A stretch of DNA of 64,000 bases from Citrobacter amalonaticus (lineage in GTDB: Bacteria; Pseudomonadota; Gammaproteobacteria; Enterobacterales; Enterobacteriaceae). The stretch's first letter is position 1, and each line of letters begins with the position of its first letter. A model generated the notes under the pieces. That model was not told the origin of the DNA. It searched no databases and worked only from the letters and a program-made list of their open reading frames with translations. Shown here in pieces: positions 13,521 through 42,560 of this stretch. The stretch covers positions 4,154,001 to 4,218,000 of the forward strand of contig NZ_AP024585.1 in NCBI RefSeq assembly GCF_018323885.1, given 5' to 3'. Made by a program: the position numbers and the translations under genes.

Positions 13521-13522
13521 TA

Positions 13523-16045: not shown

Positions 16046-16052
16046 TAACTAC

Positions 16053-20057: not shown

Positions 20058-20225
20058 TGCAGACTCCTGGATTTTGAAGGTGTTAGCAGTATGCGTTCAC
20101 CTGATTCAACCAGCAACATTAGCTTGAAATGAACGCAAATACAGGATTTTTATCTAATATTCATGTCGTTTTATTGAGAGATGACTGTATGTTAGAGGAA
20201 AGCAGGGTCTAGGGTGGAGATGAAC

Positions 20226-20954
20226 ATGAGGTTCGACATTGAGGGATTTATCACTTTTGACACAGAGGATGCGTCTCTCGTTAACCTGTTGACTGGGGAT
20301 TGCGTTGAATTATCCCAAACCTCTACACGCTTGTTGGCTGAATTGCTCAATCATCAAGGCGATATCCTTTCGAGAAATGAAATCTTTCAGACTGTTTTTG
20401 ATAAATATGGCGCCAGAGCGTCAAATAGTAATCTAAATCAATATATCTCCACATTGCGCAGAAACCTGAGCGATCTGGGTATCGCAAAAGAAATCATTGT
20501 CACGGTTCCTCGTATTGGTTTCAAAATAGCGGAAGATGCCATTATCAATAACGATCGTGAGTATCGAACGCCATTCCTTGAAGAAAAGGAGCCGGAGGCT
20601 CCGCCAGTTGAACCACAGAAACGCTGTCTTAAGCGCTTTACCCGCATTATCGCTCTGGCAATTGCCTTCCTTCTGCTCATAATAAATCCAGGTTCATTCA
20701 GAGCCGACACCGATATACAAAAACTGGTTGAGGGTCAGTGCGTCATTTTTATGCCCTCCTCACTCTCATTACGAGAGGTGACAAAGAGCTTTGATTTTGT
20801 CCCACAACCATTCGATTGCTCAGAGCAAAAGGAGTTGTACGTTTACAAGCAACAGGTACAAGGAGACCTGGGTGATATTGTGCAATTGTTACTCATTAAA
20901 TGTGATAAAGACAGCTGCATGAGTTTTTATTACAGAGAAAAAAATAATGCCTAA
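20226..20954 (+). CDS. ToxR/CadC-like membrane-bound transcriptional regulator (MarT-like)
   Basis: An N-terminal OmpR/PhoB-type winged helix (residues about 5-100: VELSQTSTRLLAELLNHQGD, ILSRNEIFQTVFDKYG, NLNQYISTLRRNLSDLG, VPRIGFKI) precedes a proline-rich linker, one transmembrane helix (IIALAIAFLLLIINPGSF, about residues 140-157) and a periplasmic tail of about 85 residues with four or five cysteines. The start at 20226 has GGAG six bases upstream; earlier in-frame GTG (20214) and ATG (20220) lie in that site. It overlaps the FidL-like gene, as MarT-FidL and YqeI-YqeJ pairs do in other enterics. The signal sensed is unknown. Confidence 0.82.
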   Translation: MRFDIEGFITFDTEDASLVNLLTGDCVELSQTSTRLLAELLNHQGDILSRNEIFQTVFDKYGARASNSNLNQYISTLRRNLSDLGIAKEIIVTVPRIGFKIAEDAIINNDREYRTPFLEEKEPEAPPVEPQKRCLKRFTRIIALAIAFLLLIINPGSFRADTDIQKLVEGQCVIFMPSSLSLREVTKSFDFVPQPFDCSEQKELYVYKQQVQGDLGDIVQLLLIKCDKDSCMSFYYREKNNA

Positions 20955-21414
20955 ACAAGCCATTTTTCTTTTGATCGGTGTCGGCCTGTTATTGATCGGC
21001 GCGGTTTACTGTTTTACCCGGCCCCCGGTTTTCTCATGCGAGTCACAGTTTTCTGTTATCCAGAGTATCAACAGCGACAACATTCGCGCCGAAGGGCTAA
21101 TTTTTGTCCACATGACGGATGATCAACTTCTTATCAATATTGACGGACTGCTCACACATAATGAAAAAAAGTATTTAATCTCGCGCACGCTCAAAATGAA
21201 ATATGAAACATACAATGCCAATGCGCATCTGTATAAGATAATGAGTGTCAAAACCATACATGATAATACTGATAATGTTGATGATGAGATTGCTAATAGT
21301 TTGTTGTTTGGCAAAGGCCCTGACGACAAAATAATTTTCCTAAAAAAAGTCAATAATAATGTCATACTATTTGGTAACCACGTATTCCCGCAATATGGTT
21401 GCAAACGAGATTAA
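20947..21414 (+). CDS. FidL-like membrane protein
   Basis: 155 residues: an N-terminal membrane anchor (KQAIFLLIGVGLLLIGAVYC) and a periplasmic domain with three cysteines, the last two of which could pair. Size, topology and position right after a ToxR-like regulator (8-base overlap) match the FidL/YqeJ family. By analogy with ToxR-ToxS it may stabilise or tune the regulator; this is inference. No enzyme motif is visible. Confidence 0.7.
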   Translation: MPKQAIFLLIGVGLLLIGAVYCFTRPPVFSCESQFSVIQSINSDNIRAEGLIFVHMTDDQLLINIDGLLTHNEKKYLISRTLKMKYETYNANAHLYKIMSVKTIHDNTDNVDDEIANSLLFGKGPDDKIIFLKKVNNNVILFGNHVFPQYGCKRD

Positions 21415-22671: not shown

Positions 22672-23409
22672 TCAGGCGGACAAACCACCGTCCAGCACCA
22701 GTGTCTGACCGGTAAGATAGCTACTCCCTTCCCCGGTCAGAAACGCAACCGCGCGGGCGACGTCCTGCGTGCGTCCGAGGCGACGCAGAGGAATATTCTG
22801 CCGCATGGTTTTCAATCGGGCTTCCGGAATGGCCTGAACCATCTCACCGTCAATCAACCCCGGAGCCAGACAATTCACCCGAATGCCAAAACGCCCCACT
22901 TCTCGCGCCAGCGAATGCGTCAGGCCAATCATCGCCGCCTTGCTGGCGGCATAGGCCGTCTGTCCGCTGTTGCCTTTTATGGCCGTCACGGATGACATAA
23001 ACACAATCGAGCCACTGCCCTGGGTCATCATGGCGGGCAGCAGAATGCGATTCCAGTTCACCACCGCGACCAGATTGTTTCCCAGCACCTCCTGCCAGTC
23101 TCGCGCGTTCTGGTGGATGTGCAGCGCGTCATTGGTCATACCGGCGTTATGGATGATAGCGGCAGGCGCGCCATGCGCCTCGAGCAGAGACATGGCTAAC
23201 TGCTCGACGCTGGCTTCATCGCTGCCGTCGCAGCGAATGCCCTTCACCCAGGTCGACGTACTCTGGCTTTGCGCGATGTCCAGCGTGCGGGCGATCCCGG
23301 CCTCGTTGCGACCGGTAAAGACAATGTTCCATTCAGGCAACAGGTGACTCACCAGCGCCTGGCCGATTCCCCGACTGCCGCCGGTGATGAGCATCCATTT
23401 CTTTGCCAT
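22672..23409 (-). CDS. 3-oxoacyl-ACP reductase (FabG-like short-chain dehydrogenase)
   Basis: Reduces a 3-ketoacyl-ACP to the 3-hydroxy form with NAD(P)H. The ATG at 23409 (245 residues) follows the ACP stop after one base; a longer frame would enter the ACP gene. Visible: TGGSRGIG cofactor loop (residues 9-16), NAG at 88-90, catalytic S139/S140, Y153 and K157 in YAASK, and the C-terminal GQTLVLDGG. All catalytic residues are intact. It is the last gene of the peptide/acyl operon, paired with the ketosynthase, dehydratase and ACP. It is distinct from housekeeping fabG, which belongs to another cluster in enterics. Confidence 0.92.
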   Translation of the reverse strand: MAKKWMLITGGSRGIGQALVSHLLPEWNIVFTGRNEAGIARTLDIAQSQSTSTWVKGIRCDGSDEASVEQLAMSLLEAHGAPAAIIHNAGMTNDALHIHQNARDWQEVLGNNLVAVVNWNRILLPAMMTQGSGSIVFMSSVTAIKGNSGQTAYAASKAAMIGLTHSLAREVGRFGIRVNCLAPGLIDGEMVQAIPEARLKTMRQNIPLRRLGRTQDVARAVAFLTGEGSSYLTGQTLVLDGGLSA

Positions 23410-23410
23410 A

Positions 23411-23662
23411 TCAACCTGCCATTTCCTGCGCAATACGCTGGCTGAGTTCGCGAAGCGTCATGGTTGGATTTTTCATAAACATTTCAGGGCTGAGCGTGAC
23501 GTTAAATTCACGCTTCGCCAGTACCATCAGTTCAACGTAGTCGAGGCTGTCCAGCTCCAGTTCAGGCAGCGTCGTCTCTGGTGTCAGCGCCTCCGGCGCC
23601 AGGTCTTTGGCGTCACAGATCATTTCACTGATTTTGTCGTAGATCATTTCATGCTGGCTCAT
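23411..23662 (-). CDS. Acyl carrier protein
   Basis: 83 residues, acidic and helical, with the phosphopantetheine site in LELDSLDYVELM (S39). It carries the growing acyl chain for the neighbouring ketosynthase, dehydratase and ketoreductase. No phosphopantetheinyl transferase gene lies nearby, so a host enzyme would have to activate it. Its 5' end overlaps the dehydratase gene by 14 bases. Confidence 0.92.
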   Translation of the reverse strand: MSQHEMIYDKISEMICDAKDLAPEALTPETTLPELELDSLDYVELMVLAKREFNVTLSPEMFMKNPTMTLRELSQRIAQEMAG

Positions 23663-24455
23663 TTGATTTTCCTTTTGTCAGCGCGCCGACTTTAAGCGTT
23701 ACGGCATTGCTAATGTAGTGATGTTGATAACAGGTTCGCGCGGCGATTCGCACTACCACCGCGCCATTCGCAAGGTCGCCAACCACCAGGGCCGGCAAAG
23801 TGTCGATCTCTAGATGTTCCGGTAGCGACTCTGCTCGCCAGGGGGCCAGCAGATGACTGTCGAAAATGACTTCCTGATGGGTCTGTACAACAGGAAAGTG
23901 AGAAAACAGCGCATCCAGCGTCCGACACGTCGGCAGTATGTCGGCAATCGCCTGCTGGCATAACAGCGCGGTATCCTGGAGAAGATGACGAAACAACAGG
24001 GCGTCGAGAAAATGCCATTGCTGAGCGTCGGGCAACAGCGGCAGAAACGTCCGATGCAGCGCGGCCAGCGCCGACGAATCCAGAACCCGTTGGCTTTCGC
24101 CATCGACGAGTGGCAGGTGGTTCTCCGGCGTGATCTGGCAAGAAAGGCAGGTCTCTTCGGCAGAAAACTCCCGCACCGACGCCGCAACCCGCTTAGTCGC
24201 ATCGCGCGTCAGTCGATAGGCGGTATCCCGCCACAGCGGTCGACGCAGACGCACGGTACATTTCAGAAACGGGGCGTCGTCGACCGGCGGACTGATAAAC
24301 CGCTTTACGTCCAGCAAGGCGCGCATGCCATGTACGCTGAGTCCGCTTCCGCCCCGCGCTTTCACCCACGCCTCGTCAAAGTGTACCGGGTTGTAATCGC
24401 CCGAAAACGCGGCCCAGCGCCGGGCATCCTGTTGACCATAATGAAGCGGCATCAT
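23649..24455 (-). CDS. MaoC-like hot-dog 3-hydroxyacyl dehydratase
   Basis: 268 residues. The N-terminus holds the MaoC hydratase signature FSGDYNPVHFDEA, giving catalytic D20 and H25, followed by GLSVHGM. It would remove water from 3-hydroxyacyl-ACP to give the 2-enoyl product. The second half (about 130-268) is less conserved and may be a second, inactive hot-dog fold. Start overlaps the ketosynthase stop as ATGA. Substrate assignment to the local ACP follows from context. Confidence 0.78.
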   Translation of the reverse strand: MMPLHYGQQDARRWAAFSGDYNPVHFDEAWVKARGGSGLSVHGMRALLDVKRFISPPVDDAPFLKCTVRLRRPLWRDTAYRLTRDATKRVAASVREFSAEETCLSCQITPENHLPLVDGESQRVLDSSALAALHRTFLPLLPDAQQWHFLDALLFRHLLQDTALLCQQAIADILPTCRTLDALFSHFPVVQTHQEVIFDSHLLAPWRAESLPEHLEIDTLPALVVGDLANGAVVVRIAARTCYQHHYISNAVTLKVGALTKGKSNEPA

Positions 24456-25705
24456 ACGTGCTTCTCCAGAATCAACGCCGCATTCGCGCCACCAAAGCCG
24501 AAGCTCAGGTTTAGCGTGCGACGGACATTGCCCGCACGATGGCCCTCAACCACATAATCCAGATCGCAGCATTCATCCGCTTGCTGGAAATTGGCCGTCG
24601 CGGGAATGATGCCGTTGGCGATAGCTTGCAGACAGACAATGCTCTCGAAGGTGCCCGCCGCGGAAATTAAGTGCCCGGAGTACGATTTCGTACTGGAAAC
24701 CGGAATGGACCACACCGCGTCCCGCAGCGCCATTTTTAGCGACTGCGTTTCATTGATATCGTTCAGCGGCGTCGAGGTACCGTGCGCGTTGATGTAGTCG
24801 AGTTGCTCCGGTTCCAGCTCCGCCTGTTGCAGCGCATGGGTGATGGTTTGCACGCGGGCAAGACAGTCTTCCGCCGGCGAGGTGAAATCCCAGGCGTCGG
24901 AGAAGTTGGCGTAGCCGGTAATCTCGCCGAGGATCGTCGCGCCGCGTGCCAGTGCCCCTTCGCGCTCTTCCAGACACAGCACCGCCGCCCCTTCCGATAA
25001 CACAAAACCGCTACGATGGGCGCTGAACGGACAGCTGGCGCGCTGCGGATCCGACGCCTCCTTACTCAGTGCGCCCAGCACGTCAATGTTCCACACCGCG
25101 CAGTGGCTGGTGAGAGATTCTCCGGCGCCGGCCAGCATCATCTTTGCCCTGCCGCTGCGGATCACCTCGTAAGCGTCGCCAATAGCGATCGTCCCCGTCG
25201 CGCAGGCGGCAACCACCGTATTCTGGTAACCATTGAGTCCCCAGAACTGGCTGCATGCTGCGGTGGTGACGCTGGGCATCGAGTAAAAACAGTTAAACGG
25301 TGAAGCGACGCCCGCGGCCGCAAACTCACTTTGTGCGTCGTAGCTTTCGTCCAGTCCTCCCCAGCCGGTTCCCATGATCACGCCGCAGTCGAGCGTGCAG
25401 TAGTATTCCTGCGGCGGCCTGACGCCAAAGGCCATCGTCATAGCCTGACGTGCCGCGCTAACGGTCAGCCGGGCAAAGCGCGGCAGCCGACGACGAATCA
25501 CTGCAGGAACACCTGCCAGGCTCGGCTCGTTATCCACCAGCCCGAGAAAATGGGTGTTGATATTCTGCGCCGTTTTATCGACGTAGCGATAGCCCAGACG
25601 GTTATCCATCATCGCCTGCCAGCTCTCATCAGCCGTCGCGCCAAGTGGGGTCACGGCGCCATACCCGGTAACGACGACCCGCTTAAATTCATTATTCGGC
25701 TTCAT
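24452..25705 (-). CDS. Beta-ketoacyl-ACP synthase (FabF/KAS II type)
   Basis: Elongates acyl-ACP chains with malonyl-ACP. The 417-residue thiolase-fold enzyme has the complete Cys-His-His set: C168 in AACATGT, H308 in NAHGTSTP and H345 in YSGHLISAAG, with K340 in SSTKS. The N-terminal RVVVTGYGAVTPLG and C-terminal SFGFGGANAAL are typical. It begins 14 bases inside the end of the outer-membrane factor gene, so synthesis and export genes are translationally coupled. It does not look like a chain-length-factor partner, since the active cysteine is present. Confidence 0.92.
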   Translation of the reverse strand: MKPNNEFKRVVVTGYGAVTPLGATADESWQAMMDNRLGYRYVDKTAQNINTHFLGLVDNEPSLAGVPAVIRRRLPRFARLTVSAARQAMTMAFGVRPPQEYYCTLDCGVIMGTGWGGLDESYDAQSEFAAAGVASPFNCFYSMPSVTTAACSQFWGLNGYQNTVVAACATGTIAIGDAYEVIRSGRAKMMLAGAGESLTSHCAVWNIDVLGALSKEASDPQRASCPFSAHRSGFVLSEGAAVLCLEEREGALARGATILGEITGYANFSDAWDFTSPAEDCLARVQTITHALQQAELEPEQLDYINAHGTSTPLNDINETQSLKMALRDAVWSIPVSSTKSYSGHLISAAGTFESIVCLQAIANGIIPATANFQQADECCDLDYVVEGHRAGNVRRTLNLSFGFGGANAALILEKHV

Positions 25706-27071
25706 GTTGCATCATCCTGTATTGCGTTTCGCCACCCCCTTGCGCCAGCCAGAGCTGCAACGTGGCGTAGAGGTAGTCGTATTGGGTTTGTGCGAGGGCG
25801 TTCTCTAACGTCAACAGATCGTCCTGCGCGTTCAACAACGTCTGAAAATCCACGGCGCCCGCGCGATAGCGGCTTTCCGTCAGGGTTAAACGCCGCTGAC
25901 TGAGGATCAGCGACTGGTGAAGTCGTGCGCGCTGTTCATCAGCACTCAGGCGGTTTTCCATCGCTTCATCCACTTCGGCGAGCGCGGCGTAGGCCGTCGA
26001 GCGAAAGGCGATTGCCGCCTGTTTTACCGCGAGATCCGCTTGCTTCACGGTGAGCTGTTGGGTGTTCCACTGGATAAACGGCAGCGCCAGCGTGCCGCCA
26101 ATCGTGCGGATCGGATCGCGGAACCATTGGCTGAAGATTTGACTGCCGGCATTCAGTGAGGCATCAAGCGAAAGTGCGGGATAAAACTGCAGCCTTGAAG
26201 CGTCGTAACCCGCAAGGGCCGCGCGCAGACGCGACTCCGCTGCCTGAATGTCCGGCCGCTGCGCAATCACCCGTAGCGGTGTTTTTTGCGCAATCGGCAC
26301 CTGCTGGTTTGCATCCAGCGCGGGTGATTCATCGGCATGCTGTTCTGCCGGTCTGTTGAGCAACAGCGCCAGCGCATTGCGCGTATTCTGACGTTGCTGA
26401 ACCAGCGTTCGCCACTGATTCTCTCGTTCCAGCAGGGCCTGCTGCGCCTGCAACACATCGAGCTGGCCGACCTTCCCGGCGTTAAACCATGACGTCACCT
26501 GCTGCACGGTCTGTTGCGAAATCGCCAGACCGTCACGCTGATTGCGAATCTGCTGGTTATACAGTGCGATACGCCAGTACAACTGGGCGGTGGTGCCCAT
26601 CGTGGTGAGTACCGTCGCGTGATAATCCTGCTCGCTCGCCACCGCTTCCCACTCGCTTTGCTCACGGGCCCGCGCCAGTTTTCCCCACAGATCCAGTTCC
26701 CAGCCGATGGTGATGCCGCTGCTGTAGTTTTCCTGCGCGGATGTTCCCCGGCGTGTGTTTTTGCTGTTACTGGCAGAACCGCTGACCGCCACATCGGGGG
26801 TCATATTGGTGTCAGTTAACCCTGCCGCCACACGCGCCTGTTGCACGGTGATGGCCGCCGCCGCGAGATCGTTATTGCTTTCCAGCACCTGTTCAATCAC
26901 CCGCGACAGTCGGGGATCGCCAAAACGTTGCCAGCCGTATTCCGACACCGTGTCGGTAGCAGGCCCCCATTGGGTGGGCAAAGACAACAGCGGACTCTGG
27001 TAGTCGCTGCGGGTCAGTGAGCCACAACCCGCGAGCAATAAAAGTGCGAGCAACACAAGCAATCTTTTCAT
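25692..27071 (-). CDS. Outer-membrane efflux lipoprotein (TolC/NodT family)
   Basis: Outer-membrane channel of a tripartite exporter. The ATG at 27071 overlaps the MacB-like stop (ATGA) and yields 459 residues with a lipoprotein signal ([16 protein letters not shown], cysteine at 16). Two OEP repeats follow, with NDLAAAAITVQQARVAAGLT near residue 75 and the typical RPDIQAAESRLRAALAGYDA near residue 290, and long helical stretches for the periplasmic tunnel. It probably completes the channel formed with the MacA- and MacB-like proteins, perhaps also serving the C39 exporter. Confidence 0.9.
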   Translation of the reverse strand: MKRLLVLLALLLLAGCGSLTRSDYQSPLLSLPTQWGPATDTVSEYGWQRFGDPRLSRVIEQVLESNNDLAAAAITVQQARVAAGLTDTNMTPDVAVSGSASNSKNTRRGTSAQENYSSGITIGWELDLWGKLARAREQSEWEAVASEQDYHATVLTTMGTTAQLYWRIALYNQQIRNQRDGLAISQQTVQQVTSWFNAGKVGQLDVLQAQQALLERENQWRTLVQQRQNTRNALALLLNRPAEQHADESPALDANQQVPIAQKTPLRVIAQRPDIQAAESRLRAALAGYDASRLQFYPALSLDASLNAGSQIFSQWFRDPIRTIGGTLALPFIQWNTQQLTVKQADLAVKQAAIAFRSTAYAALAEVDEAMENRLSADEQRARLHQSLILSQRRLTLTESRYRAGAVDFQTLLNAQDDLLTLENALAQTQYDYLYATLQLWLAQGGGETQYRMMQHEAE

Positions 27072-28999
27072 TCGCGAGCCAGCGCCTCGGTTGGGTTGAG
27101 GCGAGCCGCCCTGCGCGCCGGAAAATAGCCAAACGTCAGGCCGATCAGGGCAGAAAACCCACAGGCCATCAGCACCGGAAACGCAGTGAACACCATTGAG
27201 AACGCATCGGTCGCAAGGGCGAAAAGATGCCCCGCCACCCACGAACCGAACACGCCCAACAGGCCGCCGAGGGCGCAGATCATCACGGCCTCAATCAGAA
27301 ACTGGTTCATGATGTCCGAGGGACGCGCACCCACCGACAAGCGGATGCCGATTTCATGCGTCCGCTCTGTCACCGACACCAGCATGATGTTCATCACTCC
27401 GACGCCGCCCACCAGCAGGGAGATCGCCGCAATGGCGGTAATCAACAACGACATCGAGTCAGAGGTCTTTTGCAACGCATTCGCCAGCTGATCGTCGGTC
27501 TGGATAAAGAAGTCCTTCCGGCCATGTTCCCGCAGCAGATGACGTTCCGCCCGCAGCGCCGCCTCATGCGGTTCCAGCCGCGGTTGAAAACGCAGAATCA
27601 ACGATTCCAGCGGCTTTTCGCCGGTGAGTCGCTGCTGTAATGACGTATGCGGAACCCAGGCGGTCATAAACCCGCCCACCACTTTCGGGCCGGGTCGTGT
27701 CGCCACGCCGATCACCCGCCACGGCGCGCCGCCAATCTGGACTATCTCGTCAAGCGGATTTTCGCCACCGGGAAACAGCGTATCGCGCCCAGTCTCATCG
27801 AGAATCAACAGCGGTTCGCCTTCCGCGACGTCGCGTGCGGTAAAGCCATTTCCCTGCACAAAGCGCAGCCCTTGCAGGGCAAAAAAGTCCTGTGACACGC
27901 CGGAGAGCATCATGGAGGAGTCGAGCCCTTTGCGAACCGCGAGCGTTGTGCTGCTGACCACCGGCGAGACGCCCATGATCCACGGCAACGCCTGTAAACT
28001 GCGCACATCGTCCATCGACAATGCGCGCTCCATATCCGGGCGCTTGCTGCCCCACCCTGTGCCGGGATGGATCTCCAGTGTGGTGCTTCCCAGTTTGCCA
28101 ATCTCGCTCATGATCGCCTGCCGCGCGCCTTCGCCTACCGCCATCGACGACACCACCGACGCAATGCCGATGATGATCCCCAACATGGAGAGAAACGCGC
28201 GCATCCGGTGTCCGAGCAGCGAACGCCAGGCCATGCGGACCGCTTCATGAAGACGGCGGCCCAGCGAGGCGCGTCCGTTATCCTGCTCCGGCAGCGTAAT
28301 CGGCCGGCAAACGGCGGCGTGCTGAACGTCGCGAATAATTCGCCCGTCGCTGATCTCAATCATTCGCTGCGCTTGCCGGGCAACGTCGCGGTCGTGGGTG
28401 ACGATGATGACCGTGTGCCCAGCCGCATGCAGCTGATGCAGCACGTCCATTAGCGCCTTGCCGCTGACGCTATCGAGTGCGCCGGTGGGCTCATCCGCGA
28501 GGATGATATGCGCACCGTTGATCAGCGCCCGGCAGATGCTCACGCGCTGCTGTTGCCCCCCCGAAAGCTGGGCGGGGCGGTGCTGGAGTCGGTTTTCCAG
28601 GCCAAGCTGACGTGCAAGACGCTGGGTGCGTGCATTGCGCTCTTGCGCTGACATTGCGGTGTACAGCGCGGGAATGGCGATGTTCTCTTCCGCCGTCAGA
28701 TACGGCATCAGGTGATAGCGCTGAAATATAAACCCCAGATAACGACTGCGCAGATCGGCCAGGTGCAGGCTGTCGGCATCATGTACCGGCGTTCCGTTGA
28801 TCAACACCTCGCCGGAAGAAGGTTTGTCCAGGCAACCGATGATGTTCATCAGCGTGGACTTCCCCGAACCCGAAGCGCCCACAATCGCCACCATCTCACC
28901 GCTGTGGAGGGTCAGTGAAATGTCGCTCAGCACCGCAAGCGTCTCGCTTCCCGCGCGGAATGTCCGGCAAACCTGGCGTAAGACGATAATCGGTTCCAT
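27068..28999 (-). CDS. MacB-like ABC transporter (ATPase plus permease)
   Basis: 643 residues. ATPase domain at about 1-230: Walker [10 protein letters not shown], signature LSGGQQQR, Walker [12 protein letters not shown]. Permease part: one helix near residue 270, a large periplasmic domain (about 300-510) and three C-terminal helices with GIGVMN-like [20 protein letters not shown] and [10 protein letters not shown]. This is the MacB architecture (mechanotransmission pump). In E. coli MacB exports macrolides and heat-stable enterotoxin; here context suggests an (acyl-)peptide. Three bases separate it from the MacA-like gene. Confidence 0.9.
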
Positions 29000-29002
29000 C
29001 CG

Positions 29003-30154
29003 CTATCCTCGCACCGTGTCCTGCGCCAGCACCACGCGATCGCCGACCTGCAATCCCTCCAGCACTTCGGCGTATTGCCGGTCATTTATCCCAATGCGGA
29101 TGGTGCGGGTGCGCGTTTTCCCGTTTTCAACGGTCGTGATGGTGTAACGCTCGGTATCCAGCGCCTGCCCGAGCGCCGCGACCGGCACGCGCAATACGTT
29201 TTTTGCTTCGGCAATCTGAATAAAGACCTGCGCCGTCATTGACGTTTTGAGCTCGCGCTCAGCGTTAGGCACTTCAAAGGTACCGGTGTAGTACACCGCC
29301 ATCGCCTGTTGATTACCGCCCATGCCGCTCTCGCCGGGCGCTTCCAGCGCTTCCTGCGGCGCAGGCTGCACGAAGCCCATCGTACTGACGTAGCGTTTAT
29401 CCGGATTGGCGATGACGTAAAAGCGCAGCGGCTGACCGGGACGGATTTTTTGCACGTCGGCTTCGGAGATACGCGTTTGCACCTGCATGGTGTCGAGGTT
29501 CGCCAGCACCAGAATGGTCGGTGCCGTTTGCGAGGAGACGATGGTCTGCCCTTCCCGGGTGACGATACCCAGCACTTCGCCGTCGATGGGCGCCACAATG
29601 CGGGTATAGCTGAGATTGGCCTGCGCCGTTTTCACCGCCATCTCCGCCTGCACAATCTGCGCATCGCTCACGTCAATTTGCTGCACCTGCGCATCGTATT
29701 GCGCCTTCGCCTGCTCGTATTCACTGCGCACGGCAGAGCCGTCACGCAGCATCATGCGCTGGCGGTTCAGCTCCTGGCGATAACGTAACAGCGTCGCCTG
29801 CGCCGACAGTTTTTGCGCTTTAGCGCTGGCCAGTTGCGCGCGCGTGTTGTTGAGATCCGACTCCTGCAACGTGGGGTCAATTTCCGCCAGCAGTTGTCCT
29901 TTTTGCACCTTCTCGCCCTGGCGCACATACAGCTTGCGCAATTGTCCGTTGACCTGCGCACCAACGTTAACCTGCACCGCCGGTTTCAGAACCCCCGTCA
30001 CCAGCACCACCTTTTCGATATCGCCCGTGCCAATGGTCTCCAGCGGTAAACTCTCCTGCGGCGAGGTCGAAGCCAGCGACGCCCAGGTGACACCGATCGC
30101 AACGGCCAGCGCTACTGCACCGCCGATCAGCAGCCAACGCGATTTCGGCGTCAT
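29003..30154 (-). CDS. MacA-like periplasmic adaptor (HlyD/RND type)
   Basis: 383 residues with an N-terminal membrane anchor (LLIGGAVALAVAIGVTWASL), a lipoyl/barrel-sandwich domain (VNVGAQVNGQLRKLYVRQGE, then KVQKGQLLAEID), a coiled-coil hairpin (about residues 105-175, SAKAQKLSAQATLLRYRQEL) and beta-barrel domains. It would bridge the inner-membrane transporter(s) and the outer-membrane factor. The start overlaps the stop of the C39 exporter (ATGA). Confidence 0.9.
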   Translation of the reverse strand: MTPKSRWLLIGGAVALAVAIGVTWASLASTSPQESLPLETIGTGDIEKVVLVTGVLKPAVQVNVGAQVNGQLRKLYVRQGEKVQKGQLLAEIDPTLQESDLNNTRAQLASAKAQKLSAQATLLRYRQELNRQRMMLRDGSAVRSEYEQAKAQYDAQVQQIDVSDAQIVQAEMAVKTAQANLSYTRIVAPIDGEVLGIVTREGQTIVSSQTAPTILVLANLDTMQVQTRISEADVQKIRPGQPLRFYVIANPDKRYVSTMGFVQPAPQEALEAPGESGMGGNQQAMAVYYTGTFEVPNAERELKTSMTAQVFIQIAEAKNVLRVPVAALGQALDTERYTITTVENGKTRTRTIRIGINDRQYAEVLEGLQVGDRVVLAQDTVRG

Positions 30155-32268
30155 ACGTTGACCTCCAGCGGGCTGAGCGTGCCGTCGTTCAGTTGATAAA
30201 CCCGCTGGAACCGCGACAGAATCGCGTCGCTGTGGGTGACCACAATCAGTGACTTACCGGCTTTCTGGCAATGAGCGTGAATCGTCTCCATGACAATGGC
30301 CGCGGTGTCGTCGTCAAGATTGGCGGTCGGTTCGTCAAGCAACAACACCGGACGCGAACTGTACAGCGCGCGCGCCAGCAATAACCGCTGACGCTGGCCG
30401 AGCGACAGCGCCGCATGGCTTTCGCGGATCAAGGCGTCGATACCGCCCGGTAATCCGCGTACCACCTCACCCAGCGCGAGGGATTCCAGCAATGCCTCAA
30501 TCTGCCCACGGTCGCGTTCGCGGTAGTGCGCGTCGAACAACGTAATGTTTTCGCGAACCGTGGCGTTAAACAGAATATCCTCCTGACTTTGCAGGCAGAC
30601 AAACTGCGCCAGTTGTTGCGAAGGGAGTGCCGAATCTGCGGCATAACAGCCCCCCGCCTGCGGAGAAAACAGGCCGGCAATCAGACGGAGTAAAGTGCTC
30701 TTACCCGCACCAGATTCACCGACAATTGCAATCTGATCGCCCGCGCGTAGCGACAGCGACACCGACGACAGCACCGGCCTGGCGGGATCGTAGCCATAGC
30801 ACAACGACGCAAACGTCAGATCCGGCGCGGTATCGGTGGGAAGTTGCATCGCAAACGAAGCGGGCTTCGCCTCGTCTCGTGGCGCAAACAGCGCATGGGC
30901 GCGGGTGTCGATCACGTTCAATTGCGATTTCTGAATGATGGCGTAGAAGATACGCGTGACGTAGGAGGTGAATATTTGCCGCAGGAAGCTATAGGCAAAA
31001 AAATCGCCCAGTGAGATCAGTTTGCTGTGCACCATCGGCAGAACCACCAGCATAAACACCACCATCTCCAGGCTTCCGGTGAGCTGATACAGCCCCTCTT
31101 TCACCTGCTGATAGACCTTCTGGCGTTGCAGACACGAAAACAGATCGCGACTGAAGTTGGCAAATTGTCCCTGGCGCTGTCCTTCCAGTCCGGCGGTTTT
31201 GACGGTCAAAATGCCCTGAATAGTCTCCATGAAAAAATCATTCAGGGTGGCGCTTTTCAGCTGCAATTGCTGGGTGAACCAGCGGTCTCGGATCACCGCC
31301 CAGACGCTGATGACCCCCATTACCGTGACGCCGACGGCGGAGATCGCCGCCAGCACGGGCGCAATCCAGAACATGATCGCCAGCGCGATCGTGCAGATCA
31401 CCCAGTCGGAGCGCAGGCCGTTATCCAGCTCAATCTTTTGCAACAGGCCAATCTGCCAGGCCGTGAAGCGGCTGAAGATCTCCCCCGGCGCCCGTTTTTC
31501 GAAAAAACGCAGTGGGTTGTGGAGCAGGCGGGAAAACCCCACACCGCTGTGGATCAGCACAAAGCGTTTGATAAAGCGTTCGCTAATCACCCGCACGCCC
31601 AGCGCCATCAGTGAGGAGGCGACAAACGCCAGGATAAACCAGCCGTAGGGAAAGTCGCTGCTGGCCACGCTGGAAAAGGCCTGGTTGATGGCGTTGCTCA
31701 CCATCGTCGGCATCAGAAATAGCGTCAGCGAGACGAGGAAGGTCAGCAGCATCAGCCGATAGATCCCCGGCACCGCCGCAGTTTCCTGCATGCTCATCGC
31801 GCGCGGCGCGCTCTGCGCGGTTGTCGACAACGGCAAATCAGGGTCTGCGGCAACGGCCTGCTCAGGTTCGACAATCAGGGCATAGCCGCTGATCTCCTGC
31901 TTAAGCGCGGCAAACGGTAACCACTGCTCACCAATCGCCGGGTTCATCACGCACACGTGGTTGCCTTTGCGCCAGGCCAGCAGGACATAGTGACTTGCAC
32001 CATAATGCAAAATGGCCGGCAGCGGCAGGTCGCTCAGCTCATCGTGCTCAAACAGGACCGGCGTCGTCGCAATACCCAGCCGCGCCAGAATGCTCATCAG
32101 CGTATCCAGTGAGATTCCGTGGTCAGAGGCCGGAAACCACTCGCGCAATGTTGCCAGCGAAACAGGCTGCCCCTGCGTCTGTGCCAGCATCGCCACGCAC
32201 GCCAGGCCGCACTCGTTGGTCTCTTCCTGAAAGATCAGATTCGGGATCGTGGTCGTCATTTTTATCAT
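30151..32268 (-). CDS. Peptidase-containing ABC exporter (C39, CvaB-type)
   Basis: Cleaves a double-glycine leader and exports the peptide. 705 residues: C39 peptidase (about 5-130) with Q14, C20 in NECGLACVAML and H93 in SHYVLL; the third triad position, usually Asp in a DPA.G motif, is N109 (MNPAIG). Then six membrane helices (about 165-450) and an ATPase with Walker A GESGAGKST, signature LSLGQRQR and Walker B LLLDEPTANLD. The start ATG overlaps the previous stop (TGATG); ATG at 32259 is an alternative. Its obvious substrate is the GG-leader peptide at 33959-34156. Confidence 0.9.
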   Translation of the reverse strand: MIKMTTTIPNLIFQEETNECGLACVAMLAQTQGQPVSLATLREWFPASDHGISLDTLMSILARLGIATTPVLFEHDELSDLPLPAILHYGASHYVLLAWRKGNHVCVMNPAIGEQWLPFAALKQEISGYALIVEPEQAVAADPDLPLSTTAQSAPRAMSMQETAAVPGIYRLMLLTFLVSLTLFLMPTMVSNAINQAFSSVASSDFPYGWFILAFVASSLMALGVRVISERFIKRFVLIHSGVGFSRLLHNPLRFFEKRAPGEIFSRFTAWQIGLLQKIELDNGLRSDWVICTIALAIMFWIAPVLAAISAVGVTVMGVISVWAVIRDRWFTQQLQLKSATLNDFFMETIQGILTVKTAGLEGQRQGQFANFSRDLFSCLQRQKVYQQVKEGLYQLTGSLEMVVFMLVVLPMVHSKLISLGDFFAYSFLRQIFTSYVTRIFYAIIQKSQLNVIDTRAHALFAPRDEAKPASFAMQLPTDTAPDLTFASLCYGYDPARPVLSSVSLSLRAGDQIAIVGESGAGKSTLLRLIAGLFSPQAGGCYAADSALPSQQLAQFVCLQSQEDILFNATVRENITLFDAHYRERDRGQIEALLESLALGEVVRGLPGGIDALIRESHAALSLGQRQRLLLARALYSSRPVLLLDEPTANLDDDTAAIVMETIHAHCQKAGKSLIVVTHSDAILSRFQRVYQLNDGTLSPLEVNV

Positions 32269-33218
32269 CAGTGATTAATAAAGAAGAGAGAATGGCTGTG
32301 CCAAAGAAGCCACTCCTGCGGATATTCGCGCAGCGTGGATTCAATAATGTCAGGCAGTTCGCGGGCGACATTCTGACTGCTCACCGGCGGACGAATATGA
32401 ATGTGCAGACCGTTGTGGTAGCTGAGGTGATAAAACACCACCTGCGCCGTAATCACTCCGGAAAGGCGCACCACGCCATTGTGTAACTTCGCGCTGCGGC
32501 CGAATAAACGACACGGCAGTTTCGCCGCCAGCGCCCCTTCGGCCTGTAGGGTGTAGTCCGGCGAGATATCGGGAAAAATAATCATGTTCTGCCGTCCGGT
32601 AGCGACATCGGTGATGAGCTCCATCAGGCTGCCGGCCAGCGTTTTGTTCTGCTGATGGATGGAGCAATAGGAGAGGTCGATACCGCCCAGGGCACGGGTC
32701 TGCGCGTTGTAGAGTTCGGCGCTGGAAGAGACCACCACGCAGGCTTTACCCGGCGTGACGCAGGCACCGACCATCGCCGCCAGCACGTCCGACACCGTAT
32801 GTAACGGCGCCAGAATGTAAGGAATGTTCTGCTGATGCAGCGGTGCGACTACGGCATCAAGTTCTGCCGCACAGGCACGGATCTGCTGGAGTAGCGCCGG
32901 GTTTTGTCCCCATGTTGCGGCCTCTTCCAGCAGGCGGCGACGCACCGCGATCCAGGCCGCGTTCACCCGGCCGGTTTGCCCGATCAGGCAGCGGGTGTTT
33001 TCGTTTGCCACCGCATTGCGTAAGCGATAAGAGCGCCCCAGCAACCGTAGCGCGCAGAGTCCTTTCGCTACGGTCAGTAATGCGGGCAGCGGTAGATAAC
33101 GCACCATTTTTCGCAGCAGAATCAGTGTTCCCTGAGAAAAATTACGCTTCGCGTCATACAGCCATCCCGCACTGTTTTTAAAACTAAATACGCTCCAGAT
33201 AATAAAAAATCTGACCAC
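32268..33218 (-). CDS. LpxL/HtrB-like acyltransferase-fold protein
   Basis: 316 residues with the overall plan of lipid A late acyltransferases: N-terminal hydrophobic region, YILAPLHTVSDVLAAM near residues 134-149 (H140 with D144, an H-x3-D variant of the usual H-x4-D/E), a central segment NMIIFPDISPDYT corresponding to the AP.D region, and a C-terminal YPQEWLLWHSH resembling the usual MWLH. Similarity is weak, so it may have a different acceptor. In this operon it could move an acyl chain from the local ACP to the peptide; this is inference. It starts five bases after the DsbA-like stop. Confidence 0.6.
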   Translation of the reverse strand: MVRFFIIWSVFSFKNSAGWLYDAKRNFSQGTLILLRKMVRYLPLPALLTVAKGLCALRLLGRSYRLRNAVANENTRCLIGQTGRVNAAWIAVRRRLLEEAATWGQNPALLQQIRACAAELDAVVAPLHQQNIPYILAPLHTVSDVLAAMVGACVTPGKACVVVSSSAELYNAQTRALGGIDLSYCSIHQQNKTLAGSLMELITDVATGRQNMIIFPDISPDYTLQAEGALAAKLPCRLFGRSAKLHNGVVRLSGVITAQVVFYHLSYHNGLHIHIRPPVSSQNVARELPDIIESTLREYPQEWLLWHSHSLFFINH

Positions 33219-33223
33219 CGCGG

Positions 33224-33895
33224 TTATTTATCCTCTTTCAGCAATTGCAGCATGCGCTGCGCAAATTGAGGAAATTCACTGTCCTGGGCGACCACGTAGC
33301 GTTTATTGATAATAAACATCGGCGTCGCGTTAATATCATAATGCGCGGTAATGGCCGCCATCGTGCTGAGACGGTTTTTAACCGCGTCGCTCTGACGCAG
33401 AGTATTAAATTTATCCACATCAATATTGTTTTTGACCAGCCAGGCATTCAATGCCTTCTCATCGGTGAGGTCGACATTACGGGTAATAACGGCGTTATAG
33501 GCGCTGTCGCGAACGTTCTTTTCAATCCCCATCTCTTCCAGCGTGGCGAAAATCGGCGCGTAAGCAGCAAGACCGCTGTCTTCACTGGTAATATGAATCG
33601 CGGTAAATACACTGCCCGGCGGCAGGGTCCGGGAAAATTCCGCCAGATTTTCTTCGTTAGCCGCACAATAATGGCAACCGTAAGACATCACCTCGATAAT
33701 ACTGCGCGCGTCTTTAATCGGACTCTGAGCAATTTGTTCTGTGCTGACTTCACGAAAAGCCTGTGTTTGTGAGTTATCCGTGGCAAAGGTATTAAAGACA
33801 AAAATGTGATAACAAAGCACCGTCATCAACGAAGAGATGACGATCAAACACAGCGAATAGCTGATAATAGTGATGCGTTTAAATTGGGTCGCCAT
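33224..33895 (-). CDS. Membrane-anchored DsbA-like thiol oxidoreductase
   Basis: 223 residues: a membrane anchor (about 8-32, ITIISYSLCLIVISSLMTVL) and a periplasmic thioredoxin-fold domain with active site C74-H-Y-C77 and the cis-proline region NATPMFIINKRYV. CxHYC-type sites with His are typical of DsbA oxidases. I start at the ATG at 33895; a longer frame from 33955 would translate through the hairpin described at 33921-33946. It likely forms or edits disulfides in the five-cysteine peptide encoded just upstream. Confidence 0.85.
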   Translation of the reverse strand: MATQFKRITIISYSLCLIVISSLMTVLCYHIFVFNTFATDNSQTQAFREVSTEQIAQSPIKDARSIIEVMSYGCHYCAANEENLAEFSRTLPPGSVFTAIHITSEDSGLAAYAPIFATLEEMGIEKNVRDSAYNAVITRNVDLTDEKALNAWLVKNNIDVDKFNTLRQSDAVKNRLSTMAAITAHYDINATPMFIINKRYVVAQDSEFPQFAQRMLQLLKEDK

Positions 33896-33920
33896 AGTAT
33901 TCTCGCAGCGGAAAAGATAA

Positions 33921-33946
33921 ACCTGGAGGCGCGGGTACCTCCAGGT
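33921..33946 (-). terminator. Intercistronic hairpin just after the peptide gene (partial terminator/attenuator)
   Basis: Perfect 9-base stem ACCTGGAGG/CCTCCAGGT with an 8-base loop, starting 12 bases after the peptide stop on the minus strand and followed by TTTATCTTTTCC. Such hairpins commonly let a precursor peptide be made in excess over the downstream enzymes. Confidence 0.7.
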
Positions 33947-33958
33947 CATAGCCAATGA

Positions 33959-34156
33959 TTAGCGGTTCGGAACCCCACCACACTTGCTGGCGTTCGCATC
34001 TTTCATTGACGTGGTCGTACCGTGCTTATCCGTGCAGGTTGTCAGTTCCTTACAGGAGGTCACACCACCAATAGTGACGTTCTGATACGTGGTTTCGCAG
34101 GTTTTACAGGTTCCGCCCACCACGTTTGCCACTTCGATCGCAGTTAATTTTTTCAT
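33959..34156 (-). CDS. Double-glycine-leader peptide, Cys-rich (putative microcin/bacteriocin precursor)
   Basis: 65 residues. MKKLTAIEVANVVGG is a classic leader ending in Gly-Gly, with hydrophobic residues at the positions read by C39 peptidases. Cleavage after GG would give a 50-residue product with cysteines at 2, 5, 20, 26 and 44, rich in Thr and Lys, ending GGVPNR. It has a good ribosome site (AAGGAAA) and is first in a run with a DsbA-like protein, acyltransferase, C39 exporter and lipid-synthesis genes. It resembles the short GG-leader peptides grouped as DUF4762, from memory. No immunity gene is recognisable. Activity is unknown. Confidence 0.82.
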   Translation of the reverse strand: MKKLTAIEVANVVGGTCKTCETTYQNVTIGGVTSCKELTTCTDKHGTTTSMKDANASKCGGVPNR

Positions 34157-34238: not shown

Positions 34239-34907
34239 TCACGGGTCACACGGCATAATTCCCTTGAACACCGTGAATAACGCAATGTTGTTTCTAATAT
34301 TCAGTCGTTTCATTAAGTGCCGTTTGATATAGCTCAGGCGTCGGACATCAATATTCACTTCACCGGAAATTTGCGACAGCGATTTCCCTTTGAATATCTC
34401 TTCCATCAACCACCATTCATTGCCGGAAATCGTATAATTCATTTCCCGGTGGTGCAGTCTTCTGCGGGTGTAATTCACTAATGAATAGCTAAAGCAGCAT
34501 CCCTGGCGTCGTTGGTCCAATAATTCCTGAAAAAAAGGGGTGATATTGGCGAGATTCTCGCTTTTCAATAACCAGTGCGCGTTTGGCAACAGCGCATACA
34601 ACGTGAAAAACAGCGGCATGTTGTGCTCGCTTAATAAAATGATCAGATTCTTGTTTTCACGCTGATAGAAATTATTCATGAGCTGCAGCGCGCGAATCCG
34701 CTCACGCGGCAGGCTGTCCAAATCGCAGAGGATCCACAGGCAGCAGTCATCATTCACGCGAGTCTGTAACTGCTTAATCAATTGCGTGTAATCATCCGTT
34801 AAGGAATATAAAACATCCGTTTTCTCCGCAAGCAAACTGGCAATCACTGTTTTGATTCCTTGCGAAAAAAAGAGATCTTTGTTGTAAAGAAAACACTGAT
34901 ACACCAT
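34239..34907 (-). CDS. LuxR-type transcriptional regulator
   Basis: 222 residues. The C-terminal part (about 163-215, ISGNEWWLMEEIFKGKSLSQ, ISGEVNIDVRRLSYIKRHLM, KRLNIRNNIALF) is a LuxR/FixJ helix-turn-helix. The N-terminal part resembles a receiver domain in size but lacks a clear DD...D...K phosphorylation set, like other fimbria-linked regulators. It lies 23 bases after the last fimbrial gene and just before the peptide gene, so it could coordinate both; this is inference. Confidence 0.75.
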   Translation of the reverse strand: MVYQCFLYNKDLFFSQGIKTVIASLLAEKTDVLYSLTDDYTQLIKQLQTRVNDDCCLWILCDLDSLPRERIRALQLMNNFYQRENKNLIILLSEHNMPLFFTLYALLPNAHWLLKSENLANITPFFQELLDQRRQGCCFSYSLVNYTRRRLHHREMNYTISGNEWWLMEEIFKGKSLSQISGEVNIDVRRLSYIKRHLMKRLNIRNNIALFTVFKGIMPCDP

Positions 34908-34930: not shown

Positions 34931-35479
34931 CTACTGATAGTTCAATGTGTAATTCGCTGTGGCGGTAAAAGGTCCGGTGGTCAGGGTGCCGTTTGCTAAG
35001 GCATCCGGTTCAGCCTCCACAAATGCCTGGAAGTTAAGCCGTAAAGTGGTGTCGCTGATCGCGGCCGGACGGGTCGCCACATTCAGGCGCACAGGCGTAT
35101 CGTCTTCCTCCAGAAGACCGATCCCCACGCCACCCGCGTTGCCCGGTGATGTGGCGCTGATCGCCAGTCGGTCCGCCAGATTGCCATTGGCAGTACCGCT
35201 GAACGTCACCGTCACAGAATCAAAGACGCTCGGCGTGCAATCCTCTAATTTGATCGTGAACGGAACCGGCACTGTTTTTCCGTTGATATACAGTGACTTG
35301 GTCGATACTTTCCCGAAATCGACTGGCACCCGCTCTGAATCAGGCGCAATGCTGCACGGGTAGGCCATCACCACGCCGGTGAAACTGAGATCGCCACCCA
35401 GCAACTCCCCCAGCGCCCACACCGGGGCCGGAGCGAGCGCCGTCAATAAACCGGCAAAGACCATTGTTATGCGATGCAT
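34931..35479 (-). CDS. Minor fimbrial subunit (second fimbrial operon)
   Basis: 182 residues: signal peptide (to APVWA), pilin domain with cysteines in AYPCSIAPDSERVPVDFG and LEDCTPSVFD, and the C-terminal FTATANYTLNYQ zipper. The alternating pattern VDFGKVSTKSLYINGKTVPV is typical of type 1/P pilus subunits. Last structural gene of the operon, nine bases after the adhesin. Confidence 0.88.
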   Translation of the reverse strand: MHRITMVFAGLLTALAPAPVWALGELLGGDLSFTGVVMAYPCSIAPDSERVPVDFGKVSTKSLYINGKTVPVPFTIKLEDCTPSVFDSVTVTFSGTANGNLADRLAISATSPGNAGGVGIGLLEEDDTPVRLNVATRPAAISDTTLRLNFQAFVEAEPDALANGTLTTGPFTATANYTLNYQ

Positions 35480-35488
35480 ATTCCCTCC

Positions 35489-36544
35489 TTACTGGAATTC
35501 AGCCACAACCGTTGCAGATGCATGGAACTCACCTTCCGGAATGACGGAGGTGGTATATTTCGCCACCGGCGCGGCAGTCAGGTTCCAGTCGCCTTCGTTA
35601 TTGGCAAACCCCGGCACGTTATAGAAGGTATTGGGTGCCACCGGGTTGCCCTGACGATCGCGCAGCGCAATGCCCAGCTCGGAACGATCCGTTGTCCCCT
35701 GCGTACTCAGGTATTTACCATCGTCAAACGCAGGATTAGCCTGCTGGATCCCCAATTTGATATTCAGTGCCCCCTGGGCAAAACTGCCGCCCTCGCACTT
35801 CACATGAATCGGTACGTTTTTGCTGTAATTGATGCCATTCAGTCGGCTACCGATCCCCGGTATGTTGCCGAAGTCAACGACGATCGGCGTCCCCTGATTG
35901 ACGATACATTTATCCGGCACGGTGATGACACCGGAAGCGATGGTGATGCGGGAAAGCGGCGTTTGCCCCATTGCGCCCGGCCCCAGGCGACCAAAGAGTT
36001 TTGCAATCTCAGATCCTTGCAGGTTCACCCCGTTGATAATCGGTTTGGTGATCATAAAGGTCACCTTCCCCTTTGCACCGGAGGTAAACTGGTTGTCAAG
36101 GATCGTGCTGGGCGGGTTACAGTAGTTCTGATTGGCGTCGTTTGAGATGTTATCAAACGGTACTGTTTTATAATCTTGCAGATTCCCGCCGATGTAGATC
36201 TCAATTTTAACGTCCATATAGTCATTCAGTTTGAGGTAACCCGGCGTCATTCCGGACTGCGTCAACGTCGCCTGAGACATGTAATACACCGGCTGATCCA
36301 CCATTGACTGTGTACAGTACGCACGCCCCTGGAACATCCCTGCCAGATTAAACTCGTCAGTAATGGTCGCCCCTGCCTGGTTGGAGGTAATATCATGATT
36401 GCTGATATTAATCAGATAGTCATAGGTCCCATTCACCGGTTCAATTTCACCGTCCAGTGCGGACCACGCCGCGCCCGGTAAGCCGAGCGTGCTGAGTGCC
36501 AGTAAGACCGGCCATTTGCGGCGGAACAGGCCTGACAGTTTCAT
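35489..36544 (-). CDS. Fimbrial tip protein/adhesin (second operon)
   Basis: 351 residues: signal peptide (to GAAWS), a long unique N-terminal region (about 28-190, with YDYLINISNHDITSNQAGAT and AYCTQSMVDQPVYYM) and a C-terminal pilin domain (about 200-351, ITVPDKCIVNQGTPIVVDFG to TVVAEFQ). The two-domain length suggests a tip adhesin or large tip subunit. The ATG overlaps the previous stop (TAATG). The receptor is unknown. Confidence 0.8.
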   Translation of the reverse strand: MKLSGLFRRKWPVLLALSTLGLPGAAWSALDGEIEPVNGTYDYLINISNHDITSNQAGATITDEFNLAGMFQGRAYCTQSMVDQPVYYMSQATLTQSGMTPGYLKLNDYMDVKIEIYIGGNLQDYKTVPFDNISNDANQNYCNPPSTILDNQFTSGAKGKVTFMITKPIINGVNLQGSEIAKLFGRLGPGAMGQTPLSRITIASGVITVPDKCIVNQGTPIVVDFGNIPGIGSRLNGINYSKNVPIHVKCEGGSFAQGALNIKLGIQQANPAFDDGKYLSTQGTTDRSELGIALRDRQGNPVAPNTFYNVPGFANNEGDWNLTAAPVAKYTTSVIPEGEFHASATVVAEFQ

Positions 36545-37167
36545 TACAAGTACTCCATCTTCAGGCGGACCAGGCTGCTAAAGTCACCCGCGCTCACATG
36601 CAACCCCGTGGATTCCAGCGCCGCCATAAAATTCAGTTCACTATCACCAGAGTTCACCAGCCAGGGCGCATGGGTCTGCCCGACATCCAGCGCATTCCCG
36701 TTTTTATCGAGCAGGCGCACGCCGGCTCCCTGGGTCGTACCGCTGGTGCGTAATAGCTGGCCGTTATTAAGATCGGATTCACCAACGAACGTCAGTTGCA
36801 CCGCCTGCTCCCCGGTGCTGTAGGCACGCCAGTCATTCCCGGTGGTTCTGGACGCCAGACTCCCTCGCGACTGCGACGCCCCTTTCAGGCAGTCCTTCAG
36901 ATACAATTTGAAGCGTACCGGCTCACTGCGATCGCCCGCCTGGCGAAAATTCTGCGCGCTGATCTCGCCCATCTCGACATCCTGAATACGCCCTTGTGTC
37001 ATCAGCACACAGGGAGAGGCAAACACGGTGCCGTGAAACCGGACAATGCCGCTATCTTCGCTGACATGTTCCTGAGCGCTATGCTGTGGCTGCGCGGGCA
37101 CATCCGCCCCGCACTGAAACGCCACGCCCATCGCAAGGAGGGCCACCGTGAATAAAGGATTTTGCAT
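36544..37167 (-). CDS. Minor fimbrial subunit (second operon)
   Basis: 207 residues from the ATG at 37167, which has GGAGGAACCTGACA before it; a longer frame would enter the chaperone gene. Signal peptide, then pilin domain with FHGTVFASPCVLMTQGRIQD and LYLKDCLKG supplying the cysteine pair, and C-terminal VRLKMEYL. Probably an adaptor between shaft and tip. Confidence 0.85.
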   Translation of the reverse strand: MQNPLFTVALLAMGVAFQCGADVPAQPQHSAQEHVSEDSGIVRFHGTVFASPCVLMTQGRIQDVEMGEISAQNFRQAGDRSEPVRFKLYLKDCLKGASQSRGSLASRTTGNDWRAYSTGEQAVQLTFVGESDLNNGQLLRTSGTTQGAGVRLLDKNGNALDVGQTHAPWLVNSGDSELNFMAALESTGLHVSAGDFSSLVRLKMEYL

Positions 37168-37184
37168 TGTCAGGTTCCTCCTGG

Positions 37185-37928: not shown

Positions 37929-37970
37929 TTTTGGCCTTTTATTACAGTGAGATAACTCGTTCTGTCGGGA

Positions 37971-40454: not shown

Positions 40455-40508
40455 CCCGAATAAATCCGTTAAAAACGTCCTGCTTCCTGCCAGGTTATTG
40501 TTATGCTG

Positions 40509-41057: not shown

Positions 41058-41125
41058 TTTGTCCCTCCCTGGTCTACGGTGGAGAAAGTGCGGGAACACG
41101 CCCCGCACTCATCACTTCAGGTCAA

Positions 41126-42556: not shown

Positions 42557-42560
42557 TTTT

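Follow-up and report, generated by a model that had tools for sequence, protein, structure and literature searches.

Genes of the operon

The window analysed here, a 64,000-nucleotide stretch of the 5.07-Mb genome of Citrobacter amalonaticus (contig NZ_AP024585.1, positions 4,154,001 to 4,218,000), holds an operon in which a small peptide with a double-glycine (GG) leader is accompanied by exporters, an acyltransferase-like protein and genes for fatty-acid synthesis. The eleven collinear genes described in an earlier note on this DNA were recovered intact on the minus strand, at 22672-34156, running from the peptide gene (34156 end) to that of a FabG-like ketoreductase (22672). In our judgement the case is evenly balanced for this operon making a ribosomal lipopeptide and exporting it in two steps, the acylation itself being the part that we infer.

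The first gene (33959-34156) encodes a precursor peptide of 65 amino acids, a 15-residue GG leader followed by a 50-residue core, which matches DUF4762 (PF15959) with 79.4 bits against a cut-off of 27. It is followed by a terminator-like hairpin with a T tract (33920-33947), a probable attenuator, and by the gene of a membrane-anchored DsbA-like protein of the thioredoxin fold (33224-33895, with a possible upstream TTG start at 33955; PF01323, 41.8 bits), whose CxxC, here CHYC, is present in all 30 readable alignment rows. Next come a membrane protein of the LpxL/LpxM/PatA fold (32268-33218) and an ATP-binding cassette (ABC) exporter with a C39 peptidase, the domain responsible for leader cleavage upon inner-membrane export (30151-32268; PF03412, 88.6 bits, and PF00005), in which the Cys, His and Asn of the peptidase motif are kept in the readable rows. 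A MacA/HlyD-type periplasmic adaptor (29003-30154; PF16576, PF13437), a MacB-type ABC transporter (27068-28999; PF00005, PF12704, PF02687) and an outer-membrane factor of the NodT/TolC type with a lipoprotein-like start (25692-27071; PF02321; TIGR01845, 211.8 bits against a cut-off of 210.05) complete the export genes.

The fatty-acid set consists of a FabF-like ketosynthase (KS; 24452-25705), in which the claimed triad C168-H308-H345 is indeed intact and whose nearest paralogue in its own genome is 37% identical, a hot-dog protein that is probably a MaoC-like dehydratase (23649-24455), an acyl carrier protein (ACP; 23411-23662; PF00550), whose DSL serine is kept in all alignment rows, and the ketoreductase (KR; 22672-23409; PF13561, PF00106). 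The hot-dog protein carries the motif SGD-x-NP-x-H with an intact D-x4-H, its Asp and His being kept in all alignment rows. The operon contains no enoyl reductase. The family assignments of the earlier note stand for the eight proteins with Pfam matches above the cut-off (KR, ACP, KS, OEP/NodT, MacB, HlyD/MacA, C39-ABC and DsbA); the MaoC-like protein remains below it (PF01575, 23.0 bits against 27), and no Pfam match was obtained for the window's LpxL-like protein itself.

When the likeliest starts are taken, six of the ten junctions overlap by the reported 1-14 bases (LpxL/C39 1 base, C39/MacA 4, MacB/NodT 4, NodT/KS 14, KS/MaoC 4 and MaoC/ACP 14), and the remaining four are gaps of 1, 3, 5 and 63 bases. 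The largest gap, that between the upstream regulator and the peptide gene included, is 82 bases, and no open reading frame (ORF) is left over between the named genes. Downstream, a convergent HD-domain gene ends 33 bases from the reductase gene.

Conservation on chromosomes

Among 246 genomes searched from the same family, 24 encode the LpxL-like protein, at 25 places, and the surroundings of all 25 were read. The genes for the C39 exporter, MacA, MacB, NodT, KS, MaoC-like protein and ACP were found at all 25 (at L045 with interrupted frames) and that for the KR at 23, the other two stretches (L043 and L050) stopping at the fetched edge; the DsbA-like gene is present at 24 and missing at L053. 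A DUF4762-type GG-leader peptide was found at every one of the 25 places. Because 26 peptides from these very loci went into the peptide profile, it is circular for those; tblastn with the window peptide alone as query recovered 28 of 30 fetched loci (not L035 and L053). Peptide, C39 export, acyltransferase and fatty-acid genes thus form one co-inherited unit in this family, in support of the earlier note; the KS-ACP genes, far from being regularly apart from the peptide-export genes, accompany them at all 25 places.

In an order-level sample of 394 genomes the LpxL-like profile was matched in 10 and PF15959 in 7, all of them among those 10. A wider origin outside the order was rejected, since a class-level search yielded, the window's own genome apart, only weak partial matches in 6 of 369 genomes (profile positions 221-306, expectation values (E) of 1.5e-5 to 8.5e-4), which we read as other LpxL-type proteins. 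All eleven genes are under purifying selection, with ratios of nonsynonymous to synonymous substitution rates (dN/dS) of 0.03-0.16 against three relatives. The pairwise distances of the eight genes tested correlate (r 0.83-0.96), which carries little weight because shared descent alone gives such correlations. Reading frames are interrupted in L034, in L045 and in the C39 gene of L029, and the exporter and acyltransferase of L059 look truncated. That the genes are chance neighbours that do not work together is hardly credible, given the 25 conserved places out of 25, the gene overlaps, the plasmid copies and one reordered copy.

Plasmid copies and loci without fatty-acid genes

When the C39 exporter was used as the tblastn query (E up to 1e-40), 14 plasmid records were matched, 10 of Escherichia coli, 2 of Salmonella and 1 each of Chimaeribacter and Serratia; some of the E. 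coli records are one plasmid under two accessions. Stretches of five plasmids were read, and one plasmid in full, together with two further E. coli plasmids from another collection. On pE41, from Serratia, the genes run in the order peptide candidate, MacA, MacB, NodT, KS, MaoC-like, ACP, KR, LpxL-like and C39, and the linkage has therefore outlived a reshuffle. Two E. coli plasmids have the peptide gene at a distance of about 3 and 5 kb from the operon, and a Salmonella plasmid has it about 3 kb away, with insertion-sequence genes near. At least 80% of the operon was found in 9 of 5426 complete E. coli genomes. A megablast of the window operon gave no match in E. coli, and neither did a blastn of the Salmonella peptide, though a more distant peptide is encoded on E. 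coli plasmids. The E. coli records H24 and H25 hold, besides the plasmid copy, a chromosomal partial copy of that end of the operon which reaches from the tail of the KS gene to the KR gene.

At three distant loci, not among the 25 places, one in a Pantoea metagenome assembly (L035) and two in other families of the order (L074 and L075), a GG-leader peptide candidate is followed by the LpxL-like, C39, MacA and MacB genes, and in two of the three by NodT, while no KS, MaoC-like, ACP or KR genes occur within the fetched stretches. Since the LpxL-like protein, the peptide candidate and the exporters persist there without the fatty-acid genes, the acyltransferase belongs to the peptide core, to which it is bound more closely than the earlier note could tell, and from these gene contents the fatty-acid set looks like a later add-on that would supply a special acyl chain. 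The motif Asp-Lys-x-Gly (DKxG) of the peptide goes together with that set: both are found at the KS loci that have the peptide adjacent or on the same plasmid stretch, and both are absent at L035, L074 and L075. The exception to DKxG is an unlinked extra copy: the genome of L076, which has a full locus elsewhere, encodes a stand-alone DUF4762-type peptide (5366-5644, plus strand) in which the site reads GKFG. Beside the L075 locus there are two clearly related GG-leader peptide candidates (10452-10748 and 11666-11956, minus strand), and the ORF between them (11136-11447, plus strand) looks like a piece of a transposase.

The existence of peptide and exporter loci that lack the fatty-acid genes would also suit an operon that groups two products, a small acyl signal or metabolite made by KS, dehydratase, KR and ACP and exported alone, and a peptide that leaves unmodified. 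As the hot-dog protein matches MaoC only below the cut-off, there is room for a thioesterase-like release role. We nevertheless regard this as improbable: no thioesterase family was matched in the Pfam scan of ten operon proteins, the LpxL-like protein is the plainest outlet for the acyl chain, and the correlated gene distances point the same way, though shared descent can give these.

The precursor peptide and its hairpin

The alignments show four conserved cysteines (C20, C35, C41 and C59) and the motif D43-K44-x-G46. In an alignment of 69 rows, made up of the window peptide and 68 of the 99 database relatives, D43, K44, G46, C35 and C59 are invariant, and DKxG is found in all 99 relatives. 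The first residue past the GG site varies: the window has Thr there, and 20 aligned rows show T, C, N, H, K, I, D and G. In a structural model of the peptide (predicted local distance difference test score 68) a three-strand meander is formed with DKHG at a turn, which may be read in two ways, as a lysine exposed for acylation or as a structural turn. Lys44 is a candidate acyl site, to judge from its conservation. Among open-licence PubMed Central (PMC) papers none was found for the name DUF4762.

Stems of 9 or more pairs, each with a T tract, follow the peptide gene at 20 of 28 loci; the corresponding counts were 3 of 560 in dinucleotide shuffles and 1 of 256 at other gene ends of these loci. 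Some of these 28 loci are close relatives, and L034 (a broken copy), L056 (the same genome as L033) and L057 (peptide displaced) were left out. The stems vary in sequence between loci with retention of the pairing, and a hairpin at this position suits an overproduction of the precursor relative to its enzymes.

The GG leader and the peptidase-containing ABC exporter are shared with class II microcins, such as the Serratia set described in PMC13101503. The GG leader, the C39 exporter, the conserved cysteines and the plasmid carriage could thus indicate an antibacterial, lipidated microcin, the more so as immunity proteins are, according to that paper (PMC13101503), often unannotated. It also reports, near Serratia microcins, a gene similar to toxin-activating lysine-acyltransferases, a different family from the LpxL-like protein. 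However, no adjacent immunity gene fits in the window operon, where no gap exceeds 82 bases (the rest of the genome was not searched), and the peptide gene shows strong purifying selection (dN/dS of 0.06-0.10 in comparison with three relatives). Moreover, the gene set is constant, with fimbriae often adjoining, and in comparison with class II microcin loci it has an extra MacB, fatty-acid genes and an LpxL-like protein. The lack of room for an immunity gene, the selection and the repeated position beside fimbriae together speak against the label of a plain class II microcin, which we reject, and the 'microcin' of the earlier note is not supported; a lipidated one we consider unlikely.

The LpxL-like protein, a putative acyltransferase

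The closest named relative of the LpxL-like protein, also from C. amalonaticus, is 91% identical. Of 16 members of the family, 10 match PF03279 at E <= 0.1, and the predicted fold matches PatA and LpxM, which places the family in the PF03279 superfamily by both sequence profile and fold; a sequence search of the PDB found no relative (one match, E 0.26). The gene stands immediately before the C39 gene in every locus read. Active sites of LpxL-type enzymes face the cytoplasm. Since C39 cleavage takes place at export and the first core residue varies, acylation of the N-terminus after leader removal is disfavoured.

Because its fold is that of the lipid acyltransferases PatA and LpxM, the LpxL-like protein might instead place the acyl group on lipid A, on a phospholipid or on an anchor, and MacAB-NodT would then move that lipid, with the peptide as a separate product carried by the C39 exporter. 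In aryl polyene clusters, which likewise unite KS, dehydratase, KR, ACP and acyltransferase, the acyltransferases beside these genes are thought to load an anchor lipid, according to PMC8253772. Two E. coli plasmid loci, in addition, run on into polysaccharide deacetylase, glycosyltransferase and CptA-type genes, and one of them into a gene annotated lpxM and marked as a pseudogene. Against a lipid substrate stand the position of the gene directly before C39 in every locus, its staying with the GG-peptide candidate and C39 where the fatty-acid genes are lacking, and the fact that the two exporters have a single MacA gene and no more than one NodT gene between them. We therefore think it rather unlikely that a lipid is the substrate. 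The operon itself is not an aryl polyene cluster on the features tested: those clusters have an acyl-ACP synthetase, a thioesterase and RND (resistance-nodulation-division)/Lol-like transport (PMC8253772), whereas no acyl-ACP synthetase, thioesterase or RND exporter is found among the ten operon proteins scanned, and the visible part of the aryl polyene gene table (PMC8253772) contains no peptide/C39 pair.

Fimbrial and other neighbours

Beyond what the earlier note described, the minus-strand run extends upstream of the peptide gene, via a LuxR-type (EvgA/FimY-like) regulator (34239-34907; NF007419 at 4e-7 and GerE at 20.6 bits against 23.5, both below the cut-off), into a chaperone-usher fimbrial operon (34931-41803, minus strand) with subunits, a chaperone (37185-37928) and an usher (37971-40454). 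The regulator starts 23 bases past the last fimbrial gene. Of 29 distinct loci, 18 have a homologous usher within the DNA fetched, and most of these 18 share one arrangement, which limits the weight of the association. Ushers of the alpha type occur at the pE41 and L075 loci (TcfC over and CooC_C below the cut-off), and CS22/SEF14-type fimbrial genes are located about 12 kb off on one E. coli plasmid. Fimbrial operons are common in these bacteria. The presence of different fimbrial types beside the same system suggests a link in function.

Other features of the window are the gene for a YhaV-type toxin, part of a toxin-antitoxin system, which lies immediately upstream of the fimbrial genes (42080-42625, minus strand), and a plus-strand pair of the CadC-like kind (20214-21414), consisting of a Trans_reg_C DNA-binding regulator and a FidL-like membrane protein (below the cut-off). 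After tRNA-Phe (10912-10987) a second chaperone-usher set is found (12837-17045, plus strand), with an HTH_46 regulator beside it (17667-18302), in a stretch of low GC content (about 38-43% at 12-22 kb) that looks like an island by a tRNA gene.

Comparison with known lipidation systems

The Aat/CexE (dispersin) system resembles the operon, as read here, in joining an acyltransferase, a small secreted peptide and a MacAB/TolC-like apparatus. According to PMC7943197, a dedicated acyltransferase acts there on a small secreted protein, which the apparatus displays at the surface, and MacA and MacB are named as homologues of AatB and AatPC; dispersin is described as counteracting the attraction of AAF/II fimbriae to the cell surface (PMC7315649). 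The acyltransferase AatD is an Lnt-like C-N hydrolase that modifies the N-terminal Gly of a Sec substrate (PMC7943197), whereas in the operon the acyltransferase-like protein has the LpxL/PatA fold, the peptide has a GG leader, a C39 exporter is present and there are dedicated genes for fatty-acid synthesis. Since a scan of ten operon proteins at E <= 0.001 yielded no Lnt-like C-N hydrolase domain, and the mature peptide lacks a constant N-terminal Gly, membership of this system is rejected on these features.

The proposed fatty acyl group on a ribosomal peptide would be shared with the selidamides, which carry it on Lys or ornithine side chains; goadvionins and lipolanthines join polyketide parts (both after PMC9505594). 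It is on this analogy that acylation of a lysine side chain is proposed here. As the selidamide acyltransferase is of the GNAT type and the phaeornamide precursor belongs to the NHLP family (PMC9505594), and domain scans of the operon matched neither, the operon is not placed among them. Among open-licence PMC papers, none was found that describes the present combination of genes.

A proposed pathway and its meaning

In the pathway that we propose, the DUF4762 precursor would be made in excess, on account of the terminator-like hairpin that follows its gene. KS, hot-dog dehydratase and KR would extend an acyl chain on the dedicated ACP; as the operon has no enoyl reductase, the chain may be left unsaturated or 3-hydroxylated, or be finished by a housekeeping reductase. 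The LpxL/PatA-fold protein would take the acyl group over from the ACP and attach it, on the cytoplasmic side, to the precursor, the likeliest acceptor being the side chain of Lys44, which is invariant and lies in the hairpin turn formed by D-K-x-G. The C39 exporter would cut the leader after Gly15 and deliver the core to the periplasm, as is established for its family and in keeping with its intact residues, and the DsbA-like protein, where present, would form the disulfides. MacA-MacB-NodT would then take the peptide, now complete, out of the periplasm through the outer membrane, by analogy with MacAB-TolC, which acts on another peptide, and with AatPABC and CexE. The product would finally act at or near the cell surface with the adjoining fimbriae, probably as a coat or anchored factor rather than as a bacteriocin; this last is the weakest step. 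Taken as a whole, a fimbria-tied system in which an LpxL-fold enzyme has turned into a peptide lysine acyltransferase with a dedicated fatty-acid synthase, and in which C39 and then MacAB-NodT deliver a lipopeptide that coats the cell or the fimbriae, is a possibility that we put forward tentatively.

Several observations weigh against such a pathway. The attachment of the acyl group to the peptide is a prediction from the genes. Whereas H-x4-D/E is the motif of LpxL-type enzymes, it is not present in the LpxL-like family, which has an invariant H140-x3-D144 instead, and the activity of the protein may therefore differ or be absent. A predicted beta turn could account for the invariance of DKxG without acylation; the peptide model is weak and has no match with E below 0.4 among solved folds; and 98 of the 99 peptides carry further lysines, which are therefore acceptor candidates too, beside Lys44. 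At L035, L074 and L075 the candidates lack DKxG yet stand beside an LpxL-like gene, so that Lys44 cannot be a universal acceptor; these candidates were named by GG leader and position, with profile matches that are not significant (E 0.06-0.4), and the same holds for the peptide of pE41 (E 4.6). In none of the eight plasmid stretches read (L057-L062, L088 and L089) is the peptide end arranged as on the chromosomes: no peptide was found in four (L058, L059, L060 and L088; three from E. coli, one from Chimaeribacter), it is displaced by about 3-5 kb in three (L057, L062 and L089) and it is reordered in one (L061). Finally, fimbriae were not seen at 11 of the 29 fetched loci.

PMC9505594 describes lipidation as 'still very rare' among ribosomal peptides. 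If the proposed pathway is true, it would represent a new route of lipidation, in which an acyltransferase of the lipid A type is combined with fatty-acid synthesis of its own; it would provide a function for DUF4762, and it would give the enterobacteria and their plasmids a second lipid-tagged export system besides Aat.

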